Assembly: GCA_019637395.1 (NCBI GenBank) | Contig: JAHBVR010000011.1 | Span: 1-64,000 of the forward strand | Direction of reading: 5' to 3' | Source of the DNA: Vulcanimicrobiota bacterium | Lineage (GTDB): Bacteria > Vulcanimicrobiota > Xenobia > Xenobiales > JADMJV01 | DNA: 64,000 bases | Shown: positions 3,354 to 57,644 of the stretch, piece after piece | Layout: the number at the start of each line of letters is the position of its first letter | How positions within the stretch are numbered: the first letter of the stretch is position 1 | Position numbers and translations under genes: made by a program | The notes under the pieces: model-generated | Database searches by the model: none | Told to the model about the DNA's origin: nothing | The model's input: only the letters and a program-made list of their open reading frames with translations

Positions 3354-5788
3354 TTCAGACTCACGCCCAGCGGAACCTCGAGAGAGAGCGCGCCTTCCAT
3401 CTCGCGCCTGACCAGCGCCGCCAAATCGTGGGCAGCGGCGGCGTCCACCTCAAAAATCAGCTCGTCGTGAATCTGCAAAAGCATCCCCGGAACCAGCGGG
3501 TCCAGGCGAACCATGGCCATTTTCATCAGATCCGCCGCACTGCCCTGAATGGGCGCGTTGGTGGCCTCCCGCTCGGCCGCCGCCCGCTGCATATAATTCG
3601 ACGAGCGCAGAGCCGGCATGTAGCGCCGCCGCCCCAGCAAGGTCGACACATAGCCGTTGGCCCGCCCGTCCTCCAACACCCCGGCGATATAGGCCTTCAC
3701 GCTGGGAAAGCGCGCAAAGTAAGCCTGCATCATCTCGCGCGCCTGCGTCTTGGGAATCTCCAGGCGCTGAGCCAGGCCAAAATCGGACATCCCGTAGAGC
3801 AGCCCGAAATTGACCGACTTGGCCACCCGCCGCTGCTGCGCGCTCACCTCGCTCGTCCCGAAGATCTCGCGAGCGGTAAAATCATGGATGTCCTGCCCCG
3901 TCCGGAAAGCTTCGCGCATGGCCGCATCCCCGGACAAGTGGGCCATCAAGCGTAATTCGATCTGGTCATAGTCGGCGGCCAGTAACACCTTGCCCTCTTC
4001 GGCCACAAAAGCCCGGCGAATCCGCCGTCCCAGCTCGCCGCGCACGGGAATATTCTGTAGATTCGGATTGCTCGAAGACAGGCGTCCGGTGGCCGTCACC
4101 GTCTGATTGAACTGGGTGCGCAAACGCCCGTCCTCTTCCACCAGGCCTGGAATGGCGTCGATATAAGTGTTCTTGAGCTTGGCCACTTCACGATATTCCA
4201 GAATCTTGGCGGCAACCGGGTGTTCCAGCGTGTGCAGCACCTCCACCCCCGTGCCCCAGCCGGTCTTGTTGCGCTTTCCCCCGGGAATCCCCAATTTTTC
4301 GAAGAGAATCACGCCCAGTTGCTGCGGCGACCCCAGATTGAACTCCTCACCAGCCAGTTCGTAAATCTCCTTCTGCAGCCGCTCCATGGAAACGTCCACT
4401 TCGGCGCCGATTTCCTTGAGGACCGCCACATCCACCGTCACGCCCCGGCGCTCCATGCCGGCCAGCACGGAGGTCAAAGGCAGCTCCACCCCGCGGTAAA
4501 GGTCCGCCTGGCCCCGCTCCAGCAACAGAGACTCCAATACCGGAGCCAGCTGCCAGGCCGCTCCCGCCGCTGCTCCCAATCCTTCGGGAGGCAGATTGCG
4601 AGCCAGAAATTGTTGCGCGGCATCCTCGACGTTCACAAAACTACGCGAAGAATCCAGCAAATGCGCCCCAATCATAGGGTCTTCCACCACCCGCGCCGCA
4701 CACAGCCGGTGCAACCGTTTAGAATCATAGACCACCATCGGACAGCCCGGTAGCTGGCCCCAAAAATCAATCGGCAATTCCCAACCTTCGGTGGGTCCCG
4801 TCGCCACGCCCAACCGGTCCGCTCCCAGCACCAGCGCCAGGCGCTGAGCTCCCTCCAGAAAGGACAGGTCGGCCCCGGCCTGCAACCAGCGCCCCACCAG
4901 AGCCTCCTCGGCTTTGACCGCGGCCATACTCTCCGGCTCCGGCATGGTCCGCAACAGCGTCTTGAACTCCAGCTCGTAATAAAGCTTGTATAACTCGTCC
5001 GGATCCGGCTTGGACAGCAAAGCCGCCTCCCAGTCCAGGGTCACCGGTAAATCCCGTTTCAAAACCGACACATCACGGCAGGCCCGAGCCTGCTCGCCAT
5101 ACTGCTCGATCAACCCCTGCAGCTTGGGAGTTCCGGCTAACTTCGGATCAGCCAGCAAGGCATCCAGCGAGCCGGCCGCCTGTAAAATCTTGGTGGCCGT
5201 CTTCTCTCCAATGCCCGGCACCCCGGGCAGATTGTCCGACGGGTCCCCTTTCAGTCCGCGGTAATCAGCCAGCTGAGAGGCTTCCAGCCCGAAGCGCTGG
5301 CGCACCGCGGCTTCATCGTAACGGGCCAGTTCGCTGATTCCGCGGCGAGTGACCAGAGCCGTCACTCCTGGCTCAATCATCTGCAAAAGATCCAGATCCC
5401 CTGTAACCACCTGGCGTTCGGCATCCGGGGCGAGCGCCGCCAGCGTGGCAATCACATCATCTGCCTCCTGCCCTTCCAGCTCCACAATGGGAATGCGCAG
5501 AGTTTCCAGAATGCGCCGGATGATGCCGAACTGGGAGCGCAATTCGTCGGGCATGGCGGTGCGCTGCACTTTGTAATCCGGATAGATTTCGCGGCGCTCC
5601 GGGGGCAGACCCTTATCAAAACAGGCAATCACATGAGTGGGCTTCTCATCTACAATGATCTTGTTCAACATGGTGGTGAAACCATAAGCGGCGTTGATGG
5701 GAACGCCCCGAGTGGTGGTCAGCGGAGGCAGGGCGAAGAAGGCGCGGTATACCAGGCCATAGATATCCAGCAGCATCAGTCTCTTCAT
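3314..5788 (-). CDS. polA: DNA polymerase I
   Basis: Family A polymerase for repair and Okazaki processing, 824 residues from ATG 5788. That ATG is preceded by a purine-rich GGGGGGGAAG; an upstream in-frame extension to 5881 looks spurious. Order: N-terminal 5'-3' exonuclease, a central region in the place of 3'-5' exonuclease, C-terminal polymerase. Polymerase motifs are intact: A (DYDQIELRLMAHLSGD), B (RRVAKSVNFGLLYG), C (QIHDELIFEV). The proofreading domain lacks the DxE metal ligands (LALVLGADRLG stands there), so proofreading is probably lost, as in Taq. Confidence 0.97.
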   Translation of the reverse strand: MKRLMLLDIYGLVYRAFFALPPLTTTRGVPINAAYGFTTMLNKIIVDEKPTHVIACFDKGLPPERREIYPDYKVQRTAMPDELRSQFGIIRRILETLRIPIVELEGQEADDVIATLAALAPDAERQVVTGDLDLLQMIEPGVTALVTRRGISELARYDEAAVRQRFGLEASQLADYRGLKGDPSDNLPGVPGIGEKTATKILQAAGSLDALLADPKLAGTPKLQGLIEQYGEQARACRDVSVLKRDLPVTLDWEAALLSKPDPDELYKLYYELEFKTLLRTMPEPESMAAVKAEEALVGRWLQAGADLSFLEGAQRLALVLGADRLGVATGPTEGWELPIDFWGQLPGCPMVVYDSKRLHRLCAARVVEDPMIGAHLLDSSRSFVNVEDAAQQFLARNLPPEGLGAAAGAAWQLAPVLESLLLERGQADLYRGVELPLTSVLAGMERRGVTVDVAVLKEIGAEVDVSMERLQKEIYELAGEEFNLGSPQQLGVILFEKLGIPGGKRNKTGWGTGVEVLHTLEHPVAAKILEYREVAKLKNTYIDAIPGLVEEDGRLRTQFNQTVTATGRLSSSNPNLQNIPVRGELGRRIRRAFVAEEGKVLLAADYDQIELRLMAHLSGDAAMREAFRTGQDIHDFTAREIFGTSEVSAQQRRVAKSVNFGLLYGMSDFGLAQRLEIPKTQAREMMQAYFARFPSVKAYIAGVLEDGRANGYVSTLLGRRRYMPALRSSNYMQRAAAEREATNAPIQGSAADLMKMAMVRLDPLVPGMLLQIHDELIFEVDAAAAHDLAALVRREMEGALSLEVPLGVSLKWGANWFEVEPFA

Positions 5789-5828
5789 GACCAAGGGCTT
5801 CCCCCCCGCTCGTGGAAATCCGCCCAGG

Positions 5829-7097
5829 ATGGAGATCGCGGTCACCAGGCTCCCACCCATCGCCCAGATGCGCCCCCTCACGGCGGCGCGTTGCGCCCGG
5901 CTACCCGCTGATCAACTCAAACTTCATCACCAATACTACAACGAAGTGCTGGCCCTGGTGGAGCACCTGCGCGCCGAGCGCTATCGCCTGCCCCCGGACC
6001 CTGTCATGCAGGCCACCGAACCTCGGCCTGACGATGATGAAGCCACCGCCATCCATAAAAGCGAATACGCCCGCCTGCATAAAAGCCTGGCTCGCGAAAT
6101 GACGCGCGGCTGCCGCCAGGCCGACCAGCTTGGCGACGGCAGCCACGTCCTGAGCGAACACGTCCAGGTGGAAATCGCCGGCCCGCGCGTGGTCAACTAC
6201 CGCAGCGACGGCAGTAGCCGCTATGCCGACCTGGACCGGCAAACCCTGGTGGAAATCAGTGAGGACGGGGTGCCGGAGGCCATTTCCCGCCAGGGCACCA
6301 CCCTCTATTCGGGTTCTCAAGCTTTTCCGTTGCCCACCCAGAAAAGCCCCGCCCGTGCGGCCACGGCTATTCCCCCCTCCTTCAGCCTGGTGGTGGGCAA
6401 CCCCAGCGTGGAGGTTCTCTGCCGCACGCTACCCACCGGTCTCATCGAAATGGACTTTCAGGGTCATCACCTGCAGGTGGCTTTTTCCGAAATCACCCCC
6501 AACCGCCGGACCCTGGAGAAAATTGCTTATAACTACCTGGAAGCCGTCAAAGAAAGAGTTCCCACCCAGCGCCTGGCCAAAGAATTTACCGTCACCAAAG
6601 TCCCCCAGGCGCCGCCGAAAATCAGCGGCAACCTGAAACCCCAGCCGCTGCCGCCGCTTCCCCAGGTGGCCGGGCCGGCGGCCAAAAAGAAAGCGGAACC
6701 GGTCGCCAAGAAAGCGGTCGGCAAAGCCCAGCCGGCCCCCAAGCAGCCCGCCGAAGTCAAGCCCGACCTCAAACCCAAGCCCCCCTCCCCTCCGCTACGC
6801 ATTCAACTGGCCAGCGGAGCCAAGCTCAGCTCCACCAAGGCGCGCCTGCGCAAAGCCCGCAAACTGGCCGCTAAAGTCACCAAGTACGACCCCCATCCCG
6901 CCACCTTCTCGGTCAAAGAGCAAGTGGCGCGGCGCCTGGCCATTCTCAGCGAGGAAGAGCTGGAAGCTTTCCAGGAAGAAATCAACATCAACCCCTCCGG
7001 CCATCCCAGCCGTGAAGGCTGGCTGAACGAAGAGTGGCTCTACCAAAAATCCGACCAGGATCCTCTCCTGTTACTTATTCTGCAACTGCTTTCCTGA
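5829..7097 (+). CDS. Hypothetical protein with Lys/Pro/Ala-rich linker
   Basis: Not recognised. The N-terminal 200 residues are mixed alpha/beta and begin with a helical segment (LHHQYYNEVLALVEHLRAERY). A low-complexity Lys-Pro-Ala linker follows (roughly nt 6600-6790), then a helical basic C-terminal domain with ARLRKARKLAAKVTK. No signal peptide or membrane helix is visible. It diverges from polA with about 40 bases between starts. The ATG at 5829 is chosen because an earlier ATG at 5787 would overlap the polA start; 5871 is also possible. Basic composition and linker could fit a nucleic-acid-binding role, but that is only a guess. Confidence 0.6.
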   Translation: MEIAVTRLPPIAQMRPLTAARCARLPADQLKLHHQYYNEVLALVEHLRAERYRLPPDPVMQATEPRPDDDEATAIHKSEYARLHKSLAREMTRGCRQADQLGDGSHVLSEHVQVEIAGPRVVNYRSDGSSRYADLDRQTLVEISEDGVPEAISRQGTTLYSGSQAFPLPTQKSPARAATAIPPSFSLVVGNPSVEVLCRTLPTGLIEMDFQGHHLQVAFSEITPNRRTLEKIAYNYLEAVKERVPTQRLAKEFTVTKVPQAPPKISGNLKPQPLPPLPQVAGPAAKKKAEPVAKKAVGKAQPAPKQPAEVKPDLKPKPPSPPLRIQLASGAKLSSTKARLRKARKLAAKVTKYDPHPATFSVKEQVARRLAILSEEELEAFQEEININPSGHPSREGWLNEEWLYQKSDQDPLLLLILQLLS

Positions 7098-47773: not shown

Positions 47774-48763
47774 GTGGCAATTCCCGGCATCAGCCTTCCC
47801 GGACTCGCCCCTAACCAAGGAGGCGGACTTCAAGGTATCCAGGGATTATTGGGGGGTCTAACCACTGGCGCCAAACCGGGCGGCCAGCTCGATCCGAATG
47901 TGCTGATGCAGCTCATTCAAATGATCATGCAGTTGCTGCAACAGGGGAACCTGAGTCAGGAACAAGCCCAGCAGGCTATCGAAGGTCTGACGGGCGGCAT
48001 GGGTGGCGGCGGGGAAGCCGGGGCCGCCGGGGGCACTGGCAATGCCGGCAATGCCGGTAATGCCGGCAACGCGGGCGGGGCCGAAGCGGCCGGAGCCGGC
48101 GCCGTGCTGTCGCCGATGGCCGCCGCCGGACAGGCCCAGGAAGCCATGAACGGGGCCCGCCAACTGGGCGATGCCTTCGCCGGACTGCTCGGTTCAGGCG
48201 GCCCCACCGTGGCGGTGCTCGACGATTTCAGCCAGGCCGGCGGACACGGCGACGAGATTGCCGGTATCATCGCCGGCGGCGGCGCCACCGCCGCCAAATA
48301 CAACATCAACACCGGAGGGGACCTGGCCGGCAATATCGCCAACTCGTTGAGCGGCGTCATTGCCCGCGTGCAAAACGGAGCCCAGGTGGACGCCGTCAAT
48401 CTCTCTCAGCAGATGTTCCAGTCCAGCGGCAATTCGGAAGCGGTGCAACAGCGCATCGCCCAGTTGCAGGCGATGGGCATCCCGGTGGTGGTGGCGGCCG
48501 GCAACGGCGGTCCCGGCCAGCAAAACACGCTGGCCCGCGGGGCCGCCCTTCAGGTGGAGAACTCCAATCGCGGCAGCGAAGCCCGCGCCGCCAGCTCGGG
48601 AACGGGCAACGTGCGCTCGGAAGGCTCCTTCACTTCGCAGGCCACCGCCAACGTCAGCATCCAGGCGGCCCGGGCTCACCAGCAGGGCCAGAGCGTCCAA
48701 CAAATTCAGCAGACGGTGCAGCAGCAGGCGGCCGCTCAGGGCGGCTCACTCAACGCCAAATAG
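47774..48763 (+). CDS. Degenerate subtilisin-like protein with Asn-Ala-Gly repeat
   Basis: 329 residues with no Sec signal. A Gly/Ala-rich N-terminal half includes four tandem Asn-Ala-Gly units near nt 48042-48078. The C-terminal half resembles a shrunken S8 fold: VAVLDDFS (Asp), GGHGDEIAGIIAGG (His), VVAAGNGG (oxyanion Asn) and a GSFTSQATANVS stretch where the Ser motif GTS would be. The nucleophile motif is weak, so activity is doubtful. Tail is Gln-rich. GTG 47774 has AGAGGAG nine bases upstream. Confidence 0.5.
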   Translation: MAIPGISLPGLAPNQGGGLQGIQGLLGGLTTGAKPGGQLDPNVLMQLIQMIMQLLQQGNLSQEQAQQAIEGLTGGMGGGGEAGAAGGTGNAGNAGNAGNAGGAEAAGAGAVLSPMAAAGQAQEAMNGARQLGDAFAGLLGSGGPTVAVLDDFSQAGGHGDEIAGIIAGGGATAAKYNINTGGDLAGNIANSLSGVIARVQNGAQVDAVNLSQQMFQSSGNSEAVQQRIAQLQAMGIPVVVAAGNGGPGQQNTLARGAALQVENSNRGSEARAASSGTGNVRSEGSFTSQATANVSIQAARAHQQGQSVQQIQQTVQQQAAAQGGSLNAK

Positions 48764-52289: not shown

Positions 52290-53195
52290 ATGAATGTTTC
52301 GCGGACTCACGCTTTTTCTCGCCTGTCGCCGCTGGCCTCCCCAAATCCGGGTCCGTCCACGCCTCCCCCTCAAGCACCGGAACCTCCAGATCAGAGCGGC
52401 GACAAAGTCTCCATTTCACGCAAAGTCAAAATCGGAGCCGGCGTGATGCTCGGTTTGACCGCGGCCGGCGTGGCCGGCGGCCTGCTGGGCGCCCCCCAGG
52501 CTCAGGTACAAGTCCGCGAGATGCCCGGCCAGACCTGGCTATCCACCTCCGACGAAGTGGAGTTGGGCAAACAGGCCTCTCAACAACTGGAGAAGCAATA
52601 TAAAGTCTGGAACAACCCGGAGCAGCAGGCGCGCCTGGACTCGATCGGCCAGCGCCTGGCCGGCACTTCGACTCGCCAGGACATCAAATTTAGCTTCAAA
52701 ATGCTCGACACCGACATGGTCAACGCCATGGCCCTGCCCGGTGGCAACGTCTACGCCACCCGCGCCCTCATGCAAAAATTTCCCGACGACGGCCAGCTGG
52801 CTTTCGTGCTCGGCCACGAAATCGCCCACGTGGAACAACGCCACTCGGTGGACAAGATGGGCGAGACGCTGCTGCGCAAACTCATTACCCTGCCTCTCAG
52901 TTTCCGCCAATGGAACATTTCCAAATTCGCTCTGAACGCCGGGGATGACCTCATCGGCAACCGCTATGGCCAGGTCAAGGAAACCGAAGCCGACAAGCTG
53001 GGTCAGGAGCACATCGCCCGCATGGGCATTGATCCCGACAAAGCGGCCGAAGCCATGAAACACCTCATGGAAGTCTCCGGGAACAAACATGACATTCCCG
53101 TCCGAATCGAGCAAATCTTCAGCGATCACCCGCCCTCCCAGCAGCGTATCGACAGCCTGCATCAATGGGCCGCCGAGATCAAAGCCCGCCCATAA
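52290..53195 (+). CDS. M48-family metalloprotease with Pro-rich N terminus
   Basis: 301 residues. The zinc site HEIAH (in LGHEIAHVEQRHS) and the third ligand ETEAD (KETEADKLGQ) identify an M48 (Ste24/BepA-like) peptidase. A Pro-rich N terminus (PPPQAPEPPDQSGDKVS) leads to a Gly/Ala membrane helix (GVMLGLTAAGVAGGLLGAP). There is no Sec signal. The domain lacks tetratricopeptide repeats, so it is a short M48 form. Likely membrane or envelope proteolysis; substrate unknown. Confidence 0.88.
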   Translation: MNVSRTHAFSRLSPLASPNPGPSTPPPQAPEPPDQSGDKVSISRKVKIGAGVMLGLTAAGVAGGLLGAPQAQVQVREMPGQTWLSTSDEVELGKQASQQLEKQYKVWNNPEQQARLDSIGQRLAGTSTRQDIKFSFKMLDTDMVNAMALPGGNVYATRALMQKFPDDGQLAFVLGHEIAHVEQRHSVDKMGETLLRKLITLPLSFRQWNISKFALNAGDDLIGNRYGQVKETEADKLGQEHIARMGIDPDKAAEAMKHLMEVSGNKHDIPVRIEQIFSDHPPSQQRIDSLHQWAAEIKARP

Positions 53196-53291: not shown

Positions 53292-53519
53292 TTAGAAACT
53301 GCGGAAGTTGAGCTCGACCGGCTTCTTTTCCCTGGCCGGAGCCGATTGGGTTGGGGCCTGCTCCTTCTTCCCCTCAGGCTGGGGCGCAGTGACCGGGGTG
53401 GTGGTGGTCACCACGGGCGCGGGAACAGGCTGGTTGGTGGCATTCTTCTCAACCGGCTCGGCTACGGCGGCCATTCCCAGCGAAAGCATCATCAGTCCGG
53501 CGGCAATCATCTTCTTCAT
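53292..53519 (-). CDS. Small secreted Pro/Thr-rich protein
   Basis: 75 residues with a Sec signal peptide (KKMIAAGLMMLSLGMAAVA) and a mature tail of Pro, Thr, Lys and Gln without Cys. No domain is recognised. A GAGGAG lies upstream of the start; downstream is a strong terminator. An 18-bp palindrome (53537-53554) in its promoter region suggests control by a regulator. It may be a periplasmic or surface linker-like peptide. Confidence 0.65.
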   Translation of the reverse strand: MKKMIAAGLMMLSLGMAAVAEPVEKNATNQPVPAPVVTTTTPVTAPQPEGKKEQAPTQSAPAREKKPVELNFRSF

Positions 53520-53536
53520 CTCTTCATACTCCTCAA

Positions 53537-53554
53537 ATGTAGACTAGTCTACAT
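53537..53554. promoter_or_regulatory. Perfect 18-bp palindrome, operator-like
   Basis: ATGTAGACTAGTCTACAT is self-complementary throughout. It lies just upstream of the small secreted gene, and a related GAC-TG-GTC core sits at 53617-53624 on the rightward side, close to a TATAAC box (53611-53616). A shared regulator of both divergent genes is a reasonable guess. The perfect symmetry and length fit a dimeric helix-turn-helix protein. Confidence 0.5.
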
Positions 53555-53579
53555 ATATTTATCGGGGAGGGTCCCCGTC

Positions 53580-53653: not shown

Positions 53654-53729
53654 ACTTGAGCGACCCCTCGCCTATAGACAAAACCCATGCCGGAAGTGAA
53701 TAAATAAAAAATCTCTAAGGTGGGGCCCT

Positions 53730-56591
53730 ATGGATCCGTTGCCAATCCGAATCCCTCAAAATACAGTGCCGATGCGCACCAACCTTGGGCTGCAGCCCAC
53801 CGCCGAACTGAACGGCAACCCCATCGATGGCCAAAACTACATCCCCAATCTGCAGGCCGCCGTGGGTGACCAACGCCTGGTGGAAAACGCCGAATTCCCG
53901 GCCTGGACCGCTCCTCATAACCGGACGGACAAAGCCGAGCAGCAGCCGGCCGAAAAGAAAGAGCTCACCGCTGAGGACAAAGTCGTCCAAGAACTTGGCC
54001 TCAAAGGCCCGCTCAACGAGAAAACCAAAGGCATGGTCGCGCAACTGGCCCAGCTCAAGCAGGCTCAAGAAGCCCGCGACCAGGAAAACGCCCGCGATCC
54101 CAAGACCCGCCTGGCCGAGGCCATGGGAGATAACAACAAAGCCACTTCCTTCCTCAGCTGGCTGACCAGCGACCTGGCCGCCGCTCCCGGCGGCATGGCT
54201 CCCTCGGCAGCGCTGGCCCAACTCATGGGCGAACCCGATTCCGCCGGTCAACTGCTGCGCCTGCGCGGCAACATCTCCAGCGGCAAAACCGCCGGACTGG
54301 AAGCCCGCCTGCTCGACACCATCGGCAAGAATACCTCGCTCTCGGCCGCCAATCAGAAGGCCATGGCCGACAACATGGCCGGTGAAGGCCAGAACTACCT
54401 GTCAGCCATTTCCAACAATTCCAAGCTCTCCGAGAAGTACTCCCAGGTGCAGGCCAACGCCGCCAGCAGCGGTGAGGGCAAGGCCGCCATGAAAGACTAC
54501 TACAAAGCCCTGGCCAGCAACCCGGGCGCGGCCGCGGCCGACGCCAAAGTGCAGGAAAAGGCTGCCGCCACCGGAGGCGGCCGCGACGCCATCGCCTCTC
54601 TGCAATCCAATCTGGCCCAGGACCCCTCCACCGCCGCCGCGGCCGTGGAAGCGCAAGCGGCTGCCGCCCGTGGAGGCGGCGCCGAATCTATCGCCAAAGT
54701 CAACAAAAGCCTGGATTCCGACATCACCACCGCCGGTTCCGGGGTGGCTCTGCACGCGGCCGCCTCGCAGGTTCCCGAAGGCCGGGCCGCCCTCGGCGAA
54801 ATGTACAAGGCCGACGCCGCCAACGGCGGCCAACTATCCGAATCCTGGGCCACCGCCAGCCGCACCGGAAAAGGTGCGGGCGCCCTCGGCGATCTGTTCT
54901 CCAACCTGGCCAAAGATCCACAGGCATCGACCGCCGCCCTGCAAATCCAGGTCAAGGGTCAGGGCTCCGGCGAGCTGATGAAAAACCTCTCCAACAGCGC
55001 CACCGGCTCGGCCGGACAGGTGGCCATGATGGCCTCGGCCAGCGACACCGATGAAGGCAAAGCGGTCGTCACCCAGTTCAATAACAAGATGGCCCAGGGC
55101 GGCGAAAGCGCGGCCAACACCGTCAAGATGCACGCCATGGCCAGCAGCACGGCCGACGGCGCCGCCGCCGAACGCAAGCTCAATCAGAACATCGCCAAGG
55201 ACCCGCTGGCCGCCACCTCGGCCGTCAAGCTTCAGGCCAAAGCGGCCGAAAGCAACGCGGGGCGGGCCGCGGTGGGCCAGCTCAACGCCAACCTGGCCAA
55301 AGATTCGGCCGACGCGGGCGCGGCCATGGCCGTCCAGGCCGCGGCCAGCTCCACCGGCGAAGGCCGCCAGGCTATCGAGGGCCTCTACAAGGGCCTGGCC
55401 AAGGACAAAGCCGCCGCCGGCGCCACCATGGCCATGCAGGCTGCCGCCAGCCAGTCCCCCGAAGGGCTCAAGGCGGTTACCGAGTTCAACCACAACACCG
55501 CCAAAGACGCCGGTGCCTCCAGCGCGGTGGCCGAGTTCCAGGCCACCGCCAGCAAAACCGGCGGCGGTATGGCCGCTTACGCCCAACTCAACCGCAACCT
55601 GGCCAAAACGCCGGAGTCGGCCGCTTCGGCGGTGGAGCTACACGCCTCGGCCAGCTCCACCGACTCGGGCCGCAAAGCCCTCACCGAACTCAACAAAAAC
55701 CTGGCCAAGAGCCCGGACGGCGCGGCCAGCCAGGCCGTACTCATGGGCACGGCGGCCGAGTCGGCTCAGGGCCGCGAAGCCTTCAAAACGCTCAACACCA
55801 ACCTGGCCAAAGACCCGGAAGCAGCCGCGGCGGCCATGGCCATGCGCGCCACTGCCTCCACCACCAGAGAGGGCCGCGCCGGCCTGGCTCGTTACAACGA
55901 GGGCCTGGCTCAGGACCCCAAAGCGGCCGCCAGCGAGATGAAGCTGCAGGCCTCGGCCAGCGATACCAAAGAGGGTCTCGAAGCCATCACCAAGATGAAC
56001 GAGAACCAGGCCAGGTTTGCCACTTCGGCCGGTCCCGCCATAGCCATGCAGGCCGCCGCCACGCGCACTCCCGAGGGCCTGGCCGCCAAGCTGAAGCTCA
56101 ACAACAATCTGGCCAAGAACCCGCAGGCGGCCGCTGCGGCGGTGGCCCTGGAGGCCACCGCCGCCAAGAGCAAGGGAGGTCGCAAAGCCCTCACCGACCT
56201 CTACGGCAATCTCTCCGCCAACCCCCAGGCGGCCACCTCGGAAGTCAAAATGCAGTTGGCCGGCTCCAGCGGTCCCAAAGGCGGCGACGCCCTGGGCAAG
56301 CTTTACAAAAGAATGGCCGGCGACCCCAAAGCCGCCGCCGCCGCCCGCCAGATGCTCGATTCAGCCGCCTCCACCAGGGAAGGTCGCGGACCCACCGAGC
56401 AGCTACGCCAGGTCATCGAGCGCCGCACCCAGCAGCCCAACCAGGAGGAAGCCGGTCCCCGCGGTCTACCGGGCCAGCCCGAGCAGCCCCCGACCACTCA
56501 GAACAACCAGGGCCAGGAACTGACCCCATCCGAGCAAAACCAGAAAGCCCACGAGCAGGCCGAGGAAGTCGAAGAAGGCGGCGAAGGCTAA
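53730..56591 (+). CDS. Ala-rich protein with ~nineteen 34-residue repeats
   Basis: 953 residues, unrecognised family. Residues 1-~255 form a polar N-terminal region with no Sec signal. From about 260 to 895 come about 19 copies of a 34-residue unit, consensus NLAKDPxAAxxAVxLQAxA then SxTxEGRxALxxLNx; four copies vary by a few residues. The unit predicts a helix-loop-helix, so the whole is probably an extended solenoid. The C terminus is a Pro/Gln/Glu tail. ATG 53730 follows AAGGTG. It ends 18 bases before the glycosyltransferase gene. Confidence 0.7.
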   Translation: MDPLPIRIPQNTVPMRTNLGLQPTAELNGNPIDGQNYIPNLQAAVGDQRLVENAEFPAWTAPHNRTDKAEQQPAEKKELTAEDKVVQELGLKGPLNEKTKGMVAQLAQLKQAQEARDQENARDPKTRLAEAMGDNNKATSFLSWLTSDLAAAPGGMAPSAALAQLMGEPDSAGQLLRLRGNISSGKTAGLEARLLDTIGKNTSLSAANQKAMADNMAGEGQNYLSAISNNSKLSEKYSQVQANAASSGEGKAAMKDYYKALASNPGAAAADAKVQEKAAATGGGRDAIASLQSNLAQDPSTAAAAVEAQAAAARGGGAESIAKVNKSLDSDITTAGSGVALHAAASQVPEGRAALGEMYKADAANGGQLSESWATASRTGKGAGALGDLFSNLAKDPQASTAALQIQVKGQGSGELMKNLSNSATGSAGQVAMMASASDTDEGKAVVTQFNNKMAQGGESAANTVKMHAMASSTADGAAAERKLNQNIAKDPLAATSAVKLQAKAAESNAGRAAVGQLNANLAKDSADAGAAMAVQAAASSTGEGRQAIEGLYKGLAKDKAAAGATMAMQAAASQSPEGLKAVTEFNHNTAKDAGASSAVAEFQATASKTGGGMAAYAQLNRNLAKTPESAASAVELHASASSTDSGRKALTELNKNLAKSPDGAASQAVLMGTAAESAQGREAFKTLNTNLAKDPEAAAAAMAMRATASTTREGRAGLARYNEGLAQDPKAAASEMKLQASASDTKEGLEAITKMNENQARFATSAGPAIAMQAAATRTPEGLAAKLKLNNNLAKNPQAAAAAVALEATAAKSKGGRKALTDLYGNLSANPQAATSEVKMQLAGSSGPKGGDALGKLYKRMAGDPKAAAAARQMLDSAASTREGRGPTEQLRQVIERRTQQPNQEEAGPRGLPGQPEQPPTTQNNQGQELTPSEQNQKAHEQAEEVEEGGEG
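54508..56412 (+). repeat. ~102-bp tandem coding repeats (34 residues each)
   Basis: About 19 diverged units, mostly 34 codons, phased by the NLAKD-type start. Unit-to-unit divergence is high, so this is old duplication under selection, not recent expansion. Clean 34-residue units run consecutively from residue ~480 onward. Confidence 0.8.
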
Positions 56592-56609: not shown

Positions 56610-57644
56610 ATGCATCTATTCGTGGATGGCCGTATGGCCGACACTCCCCATTTGCACGGCATCGCCCGTTATCTCTACACCATCATCGAATGGGGCACAC
56701 GCCACCGGCCGCAGCACAAGATCAGCGTGGCCGCGCGCAATCCCGAGCGCTGGAAGGCGCTGCCGGTCAACGTGGTCAAAGTTCGCTCCAAGCCCTTCAG
56801 CCTTTACGAACACCTGGAATTCTACCGGCTGCTGCGTAAGAGCAACTACGACCACGTCCACTTTCCTTCGCTGGCCGTCCCCATCTGGTGCCCCAAACGC
56901 TACTCCATGACCGTGCACGACCTGATCCCCTGGCATTACCCCCGTTCGCCTCTGGTGCGCGTCTACCTGACCACGGTGGCCCGCTGGACGGTGCGCCAGG
57001 CCCATACGGTGCTGTCCGCTTCCCGCCATACCGCCAAAGAAATGCAAAAATACCTGGGCTTCCCGGCCGACCGGGTGCTGGTCATCTACCACGGCGGCCT
57101 GGAGGGCGAGCCGCTGGCCCCCGAACCGGCCGGCAGACCCTACCTGCTCTGCGTCACCAACCCCAAGCCCCACAAGAACCTGCATACACTGCTGGAGGCG
57201 TTTCGCGGCCTGGAAGAGCGCTGCCGCCTGGTAGTGGTATGCTCCGACTGCCCGCAACTCAATCCCGCCCCCCCCGGAGTGGAACGGCGTAGCGGCCTGA
57301 CCGACGAAGAAATTCGCCGCCTCTACGCCAACGCCAGCGTAGCCGTTGTTCCGTCTTTCCACGAAGGATTTGGACTTCCCGCCCTGGAAGCCATGCTGCT
57401 CGGCGCCCCTCTCATCAGCTCGCACGCGACCTCGTTGCCCGAGGTGACCGGCGACGCGGCCTTACTCTTCGATCCGCACAATGCGGATGACCTCCGCGCA
57501 AAACTAGTCCAGGTATTGGACAACCCGCAACTGGCTTCCGAACTTCGCCAACGCGGCCTGAAGAGGGCCCAAACCTTTAGCTGGGACAAAAGTGCCCGGC
57601 TGCACTGGGATTATTTTGAGAGAACGGCCGCCCAACCGGACTAG
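56610..57644 (+). CDS. Glycosyltransferase family 4
   Basis: 344 residues of GT-B fold. The retaining nucleotide-sugar site is in SFHEGFGLPALEAMLLGAPL, where the EGFGLP and E-x7-E pattern is complete. N-terminal half includes TVHDLIPWHYPRSPL and the middle SASRHTAKEMQKYLG. Transfers a sugar to a lipid or glycan acceptor; specificity unknown. First gene of the run to the sulfatase, with the next gene overlapping by about 50 bases. Confidence 0.9.
   Translation: MHLFVDGRMADTPHLHGIARYLYTIIEWGTRHRPQHKISVAARNPERWKALPVNVVKVRSKPFSLYEHLEFYRLLRKSNYDHVHFPSLAVPIWCPKRYSMTVHDLIPWHYPRSPLVRVYLTTVARWTVRQAHTVLSASRHTAKEMQKYLGFPADRVLVIYHGGLEGEPLAPEPAGRPYLLCVTNPKPHKNLHTLLEAFRGLEERCRLVVVCSDCPQLNPAPPGVERRSGLTDEEIRRLYANASVAVVPSFHEGFGLPALEAMLLGAPLISSHATSLPEVTGDAALLFDPHNADDLRAKLVQVLDNPQLASELRQRGLKRAQTFSWDKSARLHWDYFERTAAQPD

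Follow-up and report, generated by a model that had tools for sequence, protein, structure and literature searches.

Which family does the 953-residue repeat protein encoded at 53730..56591 (+) of the window belong to, and what could such a protein do for the cell? The window is the whole 64,000-nucleotide stretch of DNA that was analysed, and its genome belongs to Eremiobacterota, to our knowledge a little-studied phylum with almost no cultured members. A sequence-only reading had described an alpha-solenoid of about nineteen 34-residue repeats of unrecognised family, possibly acting as a scaffold or a secreted effector. Period, predicted fold, selection, relatives and gene neighbourhood were analysed, and the results were set against known solenoids.

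Period, units and composition of the repeat protein

The open reading frame was translated from the plus strand and is referred to as the A type of the family. A Shine-Dalgarno-like AAGGTGG precedes its ATG (53717..53723, +), and sequence comparison showed that leader and site are kept in three species. BLOSUM autocorrelation over residues 181-900 gave 1.02 at lag 34 (best of 100 shuffles, -0.05) and 0.81-0.86 at lags 68, 102 and 136, which bears out the proposed period. The repeat region spans residues 230-898 (54417..56423, +), as delimited by autocorrelation, profile and AlphaFold2. A refined 34-mer profile found 18 units there; with two irregular units at residues 298-330 (33 aa) and 396-422 (27 aa), about 20 tandem alpha-alpha units were counted, close to the nineteen first read. 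The unit consensus is DPxAAAAAVAMQAAASSTxEGRxALTxLNxNLAK, and Gly21 occurs in 18 of the 18 profile units.

Residues 1-229 (53730..54416, +) comprise, in the AlphaFold2 model, an N-terminal tail of low confidence (1-80) followed by a helical stretch that may contain degenerate repeats. Residues 899-953 (56424..56588, +) form an acidic low-complexity C-terminal tail with 11 D/E and 3 K/R. The composition was as first described, Ala-rich (21.6%) with few aromatics (Trp+Tyr+Phe 2.3%) and no Cys; Ser accounts for 7.5% and Thr for 5.8%. With 72 K/R against 62 D/E, the repeat region is almost neutral in charge. No Sec signal was visible when the N-terminus was read by eye, in agreement with the earlier reading.

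Predicted fold

AlphaFold2, run on the whole protein with a three-sequence alignment, placed helix pairs along residues 231-900, with pLDDT 90-96 roughly between 680 and 840. pLDDT was mostly <50 for residues 1-211, where helices were predicted from residue 81, and was also low in the C-terminal tail. Nine repeats modelled on their own (residues 593-898; 55506..56423, +) reached a mean pLDDT of 97 and a pTM of 0.93, with the two helices per unit that had been anticipated, each of 14-15 residues; the seven aligned rows of this prediction were drawn from the same three proteins. The alignments behind the models thus comprised 3 to 7 rows, and Ala-rich tandem repeats are a case in which AlphaFold2 may overstate its confidence. 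Independently of AlphaFold2, the solenoid is supported by the exact 34-residue spacing, a two-helix hydrophobic pattern and purifying selection.

Foldseek gave no global structural match in the PDB among the best-ranked chains (TM 0.32 or less, the top chain being a designed helical repeat protein), and a viral fold search with the predicted model likewise gave no global match. The top neighbours of the model in VIA-align 2 were armadillo proteins and designs with Z about 10.6; the program's own note warns that values of Z below about 13 can reflect no more than an arrangement that helical repeats commonly share. Lack of a PDB or viral structural match is not proof of a new fold. On the strength of the model, the window protein is read as an ordinary kind of solenoid to which none of the solved structures compared is closely related.

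Selection and age of the repeats

Orthologues in SCN18_25_8_15_R3_B_62_28 and SZAS-1 are 92% and 84% identical to the window protein, respectively. dN/dS was about 0.05-0.11 in the repeat region, indicating purifying selection, and 0.07-0.12 over the whole gene. Units at the same position share mean identities of 95%, 87% and 75% between species or paralogues, and units within the window protein share 34% on average and 53% at the highest. Since same-position units are more alike than neighbours, and since irregular unit spacings are common to the compared species and paralogues, copy number has long been fixed. Variation in copy number, which the earlier reading had proposed to check, was accordingly not seen between species for the window gene, whereas paralogues and distant relatives do differ. 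TRF reported no tandem DNA array at the gene; with no DNA-level array and with position-fixed divergence, a recent tandem expansion was ruled out. Between the A and B paralogues, the central units (about residues 525-830) are the most conserved, with identities of 0.82-0.94.

A repeat family in Eremiobacterota

Searches of Pfam, NCBIfam, PADLOC and PDB sequences returned sub-threshold or spurious matches at most for the repeat protein, and none to a catalytic family. A gap-free family profile of 102 columns (A2) was built from 23 three-repeat stretches representing several families of the phylum; Gly is the sole invariant residue per unit. PDB sequences gave no acceptable match to this profile (best E 0.066, fusion-protein chains). 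When family members were compared with Pfam, no family matched more than two of them, and no match above cut-off was credible. The window protein scored 483 bits (E 3.4e-149) against A2, a profile partly built from it, and carries the family traits: the gap-free 34-residue unit, the conserved Gly21, the DP border and T/S18.

A profile search of 149 Eremiobacterota genomes detected the family in 13. These include five of five genomes of the genus and one weak match from the same family; the others came from the order or class and from two more distant families. Beyond the phylum the search had limited reach, and "lineage-bound" holds only as far as it was tested. Viral and genome contigs were scanned with exact peptide patterns, which reach close relatives only; phages, plasmids and viral contigs gave no match, and a phage or plasmid origin was rejected. 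Nothing on such a repeat family was found in the literature. The family is thus not named in any searched database and was found here only in Eremiobacterota. With no Pfam match above cut-off and a confident prediction of a two-helix solenoid, not of disorder, the claim of a new alpha-solenoid family stands. The alpha-solenoid itself is a known architecture; it is the 34-residue repeat that is absent from the databases searched. So regular a unit, in which a single glycine hardly ever varies, makes an appealing building block for protein design.

Four repeat proteins are encoded in the window genome: A in the window, B on contig C36 (69% identical to A), and two larger ones, of 1691 aa on C31 and of 1407 aa on C2. 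The complete members that were counted have between 18 and 43 repeats, and open frames in genome G033 reach 5776 residues. In that genome, adjacent giant frames of 3010 aa and about 5776 aa (L055:2833-11865 and beyond, contig C13) contain weak copies of the 34-residue repeat. In genome G002, a frameshift or an assembly error divides the B-type gene into two frames that overlap (L044:8575-11555).

Neighbourhood of the window copy and of the B paralogue

Upstream of the repeat gene lies an M48 metallopeptidase gene (52290..53195, +; PF01435, E 7.8e-26) whose product has a single membrane-like segment. It is kept as upstream neighbour in three species (synteny family fam10), and further conserved genes lie near it. 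A small ORF with a Sec-like N-terminus (about 53300-53560, -) was apparently located between the M48 and repeat genes. Downstream, a GT4 glycosyltransferase gene (56610..57644, +; Pfam PF00534/PF13692) begins 18 nt past the repeat gene, and spacing and sequence are alike in three species. Rhodanese-like, small membrane protein, radical SAM/SPASM and sulfatase genes are also present downstream. The genes of the glycosyltransferase-sulfatase operon reported earlier are in place, but GT4 alone among them is a conserved neighbour in other species; within the flank read, radical SAM/sulfatase genes were not found beside GT4 in the other two.

The B paralogue has a neighbourhood unlike that of A, conserved among four genomes. 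Read by eye, this neighbourhood encodes a protein with several membrane spans and another that resembles glycoside hydrolases. The B-type protein and a small downstream neighbour built of FASFNNVFV-type repeats (L043:7543-8079, -) share the N-terminal motif QQTxxxALGALGQLQGSYLxILGGxxLFP (E about 9e-6; L037, L041, L043, L044). This common module suggests that these N-terminal tails convey information for specific pairing or sorting.

Several of these features would suit an exported or surface structural protein that travels by a non-Sec route and is perhaps glycosylated on Ser/Thr by the co-transcribed GT4. The GT4 spacing in three species, the Ser and Thr content, the membrane and glycoside-hydrolase-like neighbours of B and the module shared with the FASFNNVFV-repeat protein all point this way. 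However, neither a signal peptide nor a membrane anchor is visible, no export route was found, and a conserved GT4 neighbour does not by itself prove modification. We consider a surface role of this kind unlikely, although the window protein may still be exported by a non-Sec route.

Zinc-ribbon-like and fam20-associated relatives

Most members outside the A/B subtype whose C-terminus was seen end in a zinc-ribbon-like CxxC...CxxC domain, which is absent from the Cys-free window protein. Its orthologues, the B paralogue and a relative in genome G004 lack it as well, so the window protein is assigned to a subtype without the zinc domain. Like the window protein, the other members of the phylum (G000:C31 and C2, of the window genome; G002, G003, G010, G013, G015, G033) have a gap-free 34-residue unit, the conserved Gly and no visible Sec signal. 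Most of them differ from it in combining the CxxC...CxxC terminus with fam20-, fam25- or MerR-type neighbours, features replaced in the window copy by an acidic tail and an adjacent GT4 gene.

Nine loci (L038, L039, L046, L048, L050, L051, L052, L087 and L088) have a gene with the fam20 domain directly beside the repeat gene or close to it. At seven of the nine it is accompanied by fam25, a small gene for a helical protein of about 128 residues, and by a MerR-type gene; the C-terminal part of the MerR-type protein resembled fam25 in three cases tested. The ORFs L050:4988-6667 and L048:11118-13226 were discarded as artefacts of antisense reading, since the opposite strand carries the genuine MerR-type and fam25 genes. 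One zinc-type locus, L054 (G026), has no fam20, fam25 or MerR-type neighbour. The contigs of several relatives were too short for the neighbourhood to be judged.

The fam20 domain is N-terminal in its carriers, and their C-termini correspond to PTP-like phytase, calpain-type protease with EF-hand, subtilase, or no recognised domain. Fusions to PTP-like phytase adjoin the repeat gene at L039:12442-14388 and L087:3335-5206 (PF14566, E 3e-29 and 8e-28), and a fusion to a calpain-type cysteine protease (PF00648, E 5e-12) and EF-hand was found at L085:5967-7970, in a bacterial genome. From the sequences, one domain with exchangeable enzymes looks like the pattern of modular effector or regulatory repertoires, and its recurrent link to the repeat family offers a starting point, open to testing, for studying how the phylum lives. 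Subtilase-like proteins were also noted repeatedly near repeat or fam20 genes (window 47774-48763, +; L045:7563-8909; L091:2121-3257); no signal peptide is obvious in them, and some look degenerate.

The repeat protein could accordingly be read as a chaperone-like adaptor or other partner of fam20-domain proteins that would act as a modular effector repertoire, the window copy serving one encoded elsewhere in the genome. Such a partnership would fit the nine loci, the enzymatic fusions and a fam20-domain-like protein of 436 aa in the window itself (5787-7097, +; E about 1e-8), whose C-terminal part was not recognised. The window copy, however, has no adjacent fam20 gene, the nearest lying 47 kb off, and both fam20 and fam25 are present as well in genomes where no repeats were detected. 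For the window protein, we regard this role as doubtful. Equally speculative is the broader proposal that the repeat proteins are dedicated adaptors for modular, MerR-linked fam20-enzyme proteins in an undescribed, phylum-specific system of protein handling or delivery, in which the window gene would be a duplicated member that has moved to a new locus.

Proposed role of the window protein

On balance, the window protein is probably a non-Sec, non-catalytic scaffold or adaptor that binds proteins in the cell and represents a new alpha-solenoid family. A binding scaffold or adaptor is the best supported role because there is no known domain and no visible Sec signal, the repeat surface is constrained, and tails are present at both ends. 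About 20 two-helix units would stack into a long, rigid alpha-alpha solenoid, flanked by a disordered tail at the N-terminus and an acidic one at the C-terminus. Its surface, above all that of the central repeats (about 525-830), would hold one or more partner proteins. In the form of the family that looks ancestral, the solenoid has a terminal zinc-ribbon-like domain and its gene adjoins those of fam20-domain proteins whose C-termini carry different enzymes; as the window copy has no adjacent fam20 gene, a role drawn from relatives may not carry over to it. Observed here are the repeat itself, how it is conserved and distributed, and which genes surround it; the fold is a prediction, and that the protein is a scaffold, that it resides in the cytoplasm and which partners it has are inferred. 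Of the two functions suggested at the outset, a scaffold is thus plausible, and a secreted effector found no direct support in the window protein.

Comparison with known solenoids

The repeat length of TPR and TALE units, combined with another consensus, had been pointed out before, and signature tests for both failed. With tetratricopeptide repeats the family shares 34-residue two-helix units, a border proline and a tandem solenoid, and a very divergent TPR protein would be consistent with the "DP" at the place of TPR positions 31-32. In the DP-border register of the signature W4-L7-G8-Y11-A20-F24-A27-P32, positions 4, 20, 24 and 32 agreed in 44-67% of 213 units, the helix-B positions 20 and 24 being compatible; positions 8, 11 and 27 agreed in 3%, 6% and 19%. 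No TPR model matched at its curated cut-off: Pfam had none, and the NCBIfam match to LapB (E 0.0017) reached 17.5 bits against a cut-off of 474. hhalign gave the repeat profile a probability of 0.2% against consensus TPR, and Foldseek superposed the predicted model on an 8-repeat consensus TPR superhelix with TM 0.16. The invariant Gly ahead of helix B and the Ala-rich helix A further set the family apart, and a very divergent TPR protein is a very improbable reading.

A sequence-reading DNA-binding solenoid of the TALE type, which has 33-35-residue units of two helices each and headed the phmmer list for the single window protein (E 0.01), can practically be dismissed, since the units are highly diverged (34% identical on average) with no repeat-variable residue pair, no TALE chain matched the family profile up to E 10, and the repeat region is near neutral in charge. 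No HEAT or armadillo Pfam model matched at gathering score. By structure, importin-alpha, beta-catenin and designed armadillo proteins were the best VIA-align 2 neighbours (rmsd 5.6-6.2 A over 223-237 residues), a likeness that may be no more than that of helical solenoids in general; for the HEAT/armadillo comparison as a whole, Z was about 10 with rmsd 5-7 A. Armadillo units comprise three helices in about 42 residues, whereas the window repeat, in the model, packs two helices into 34.
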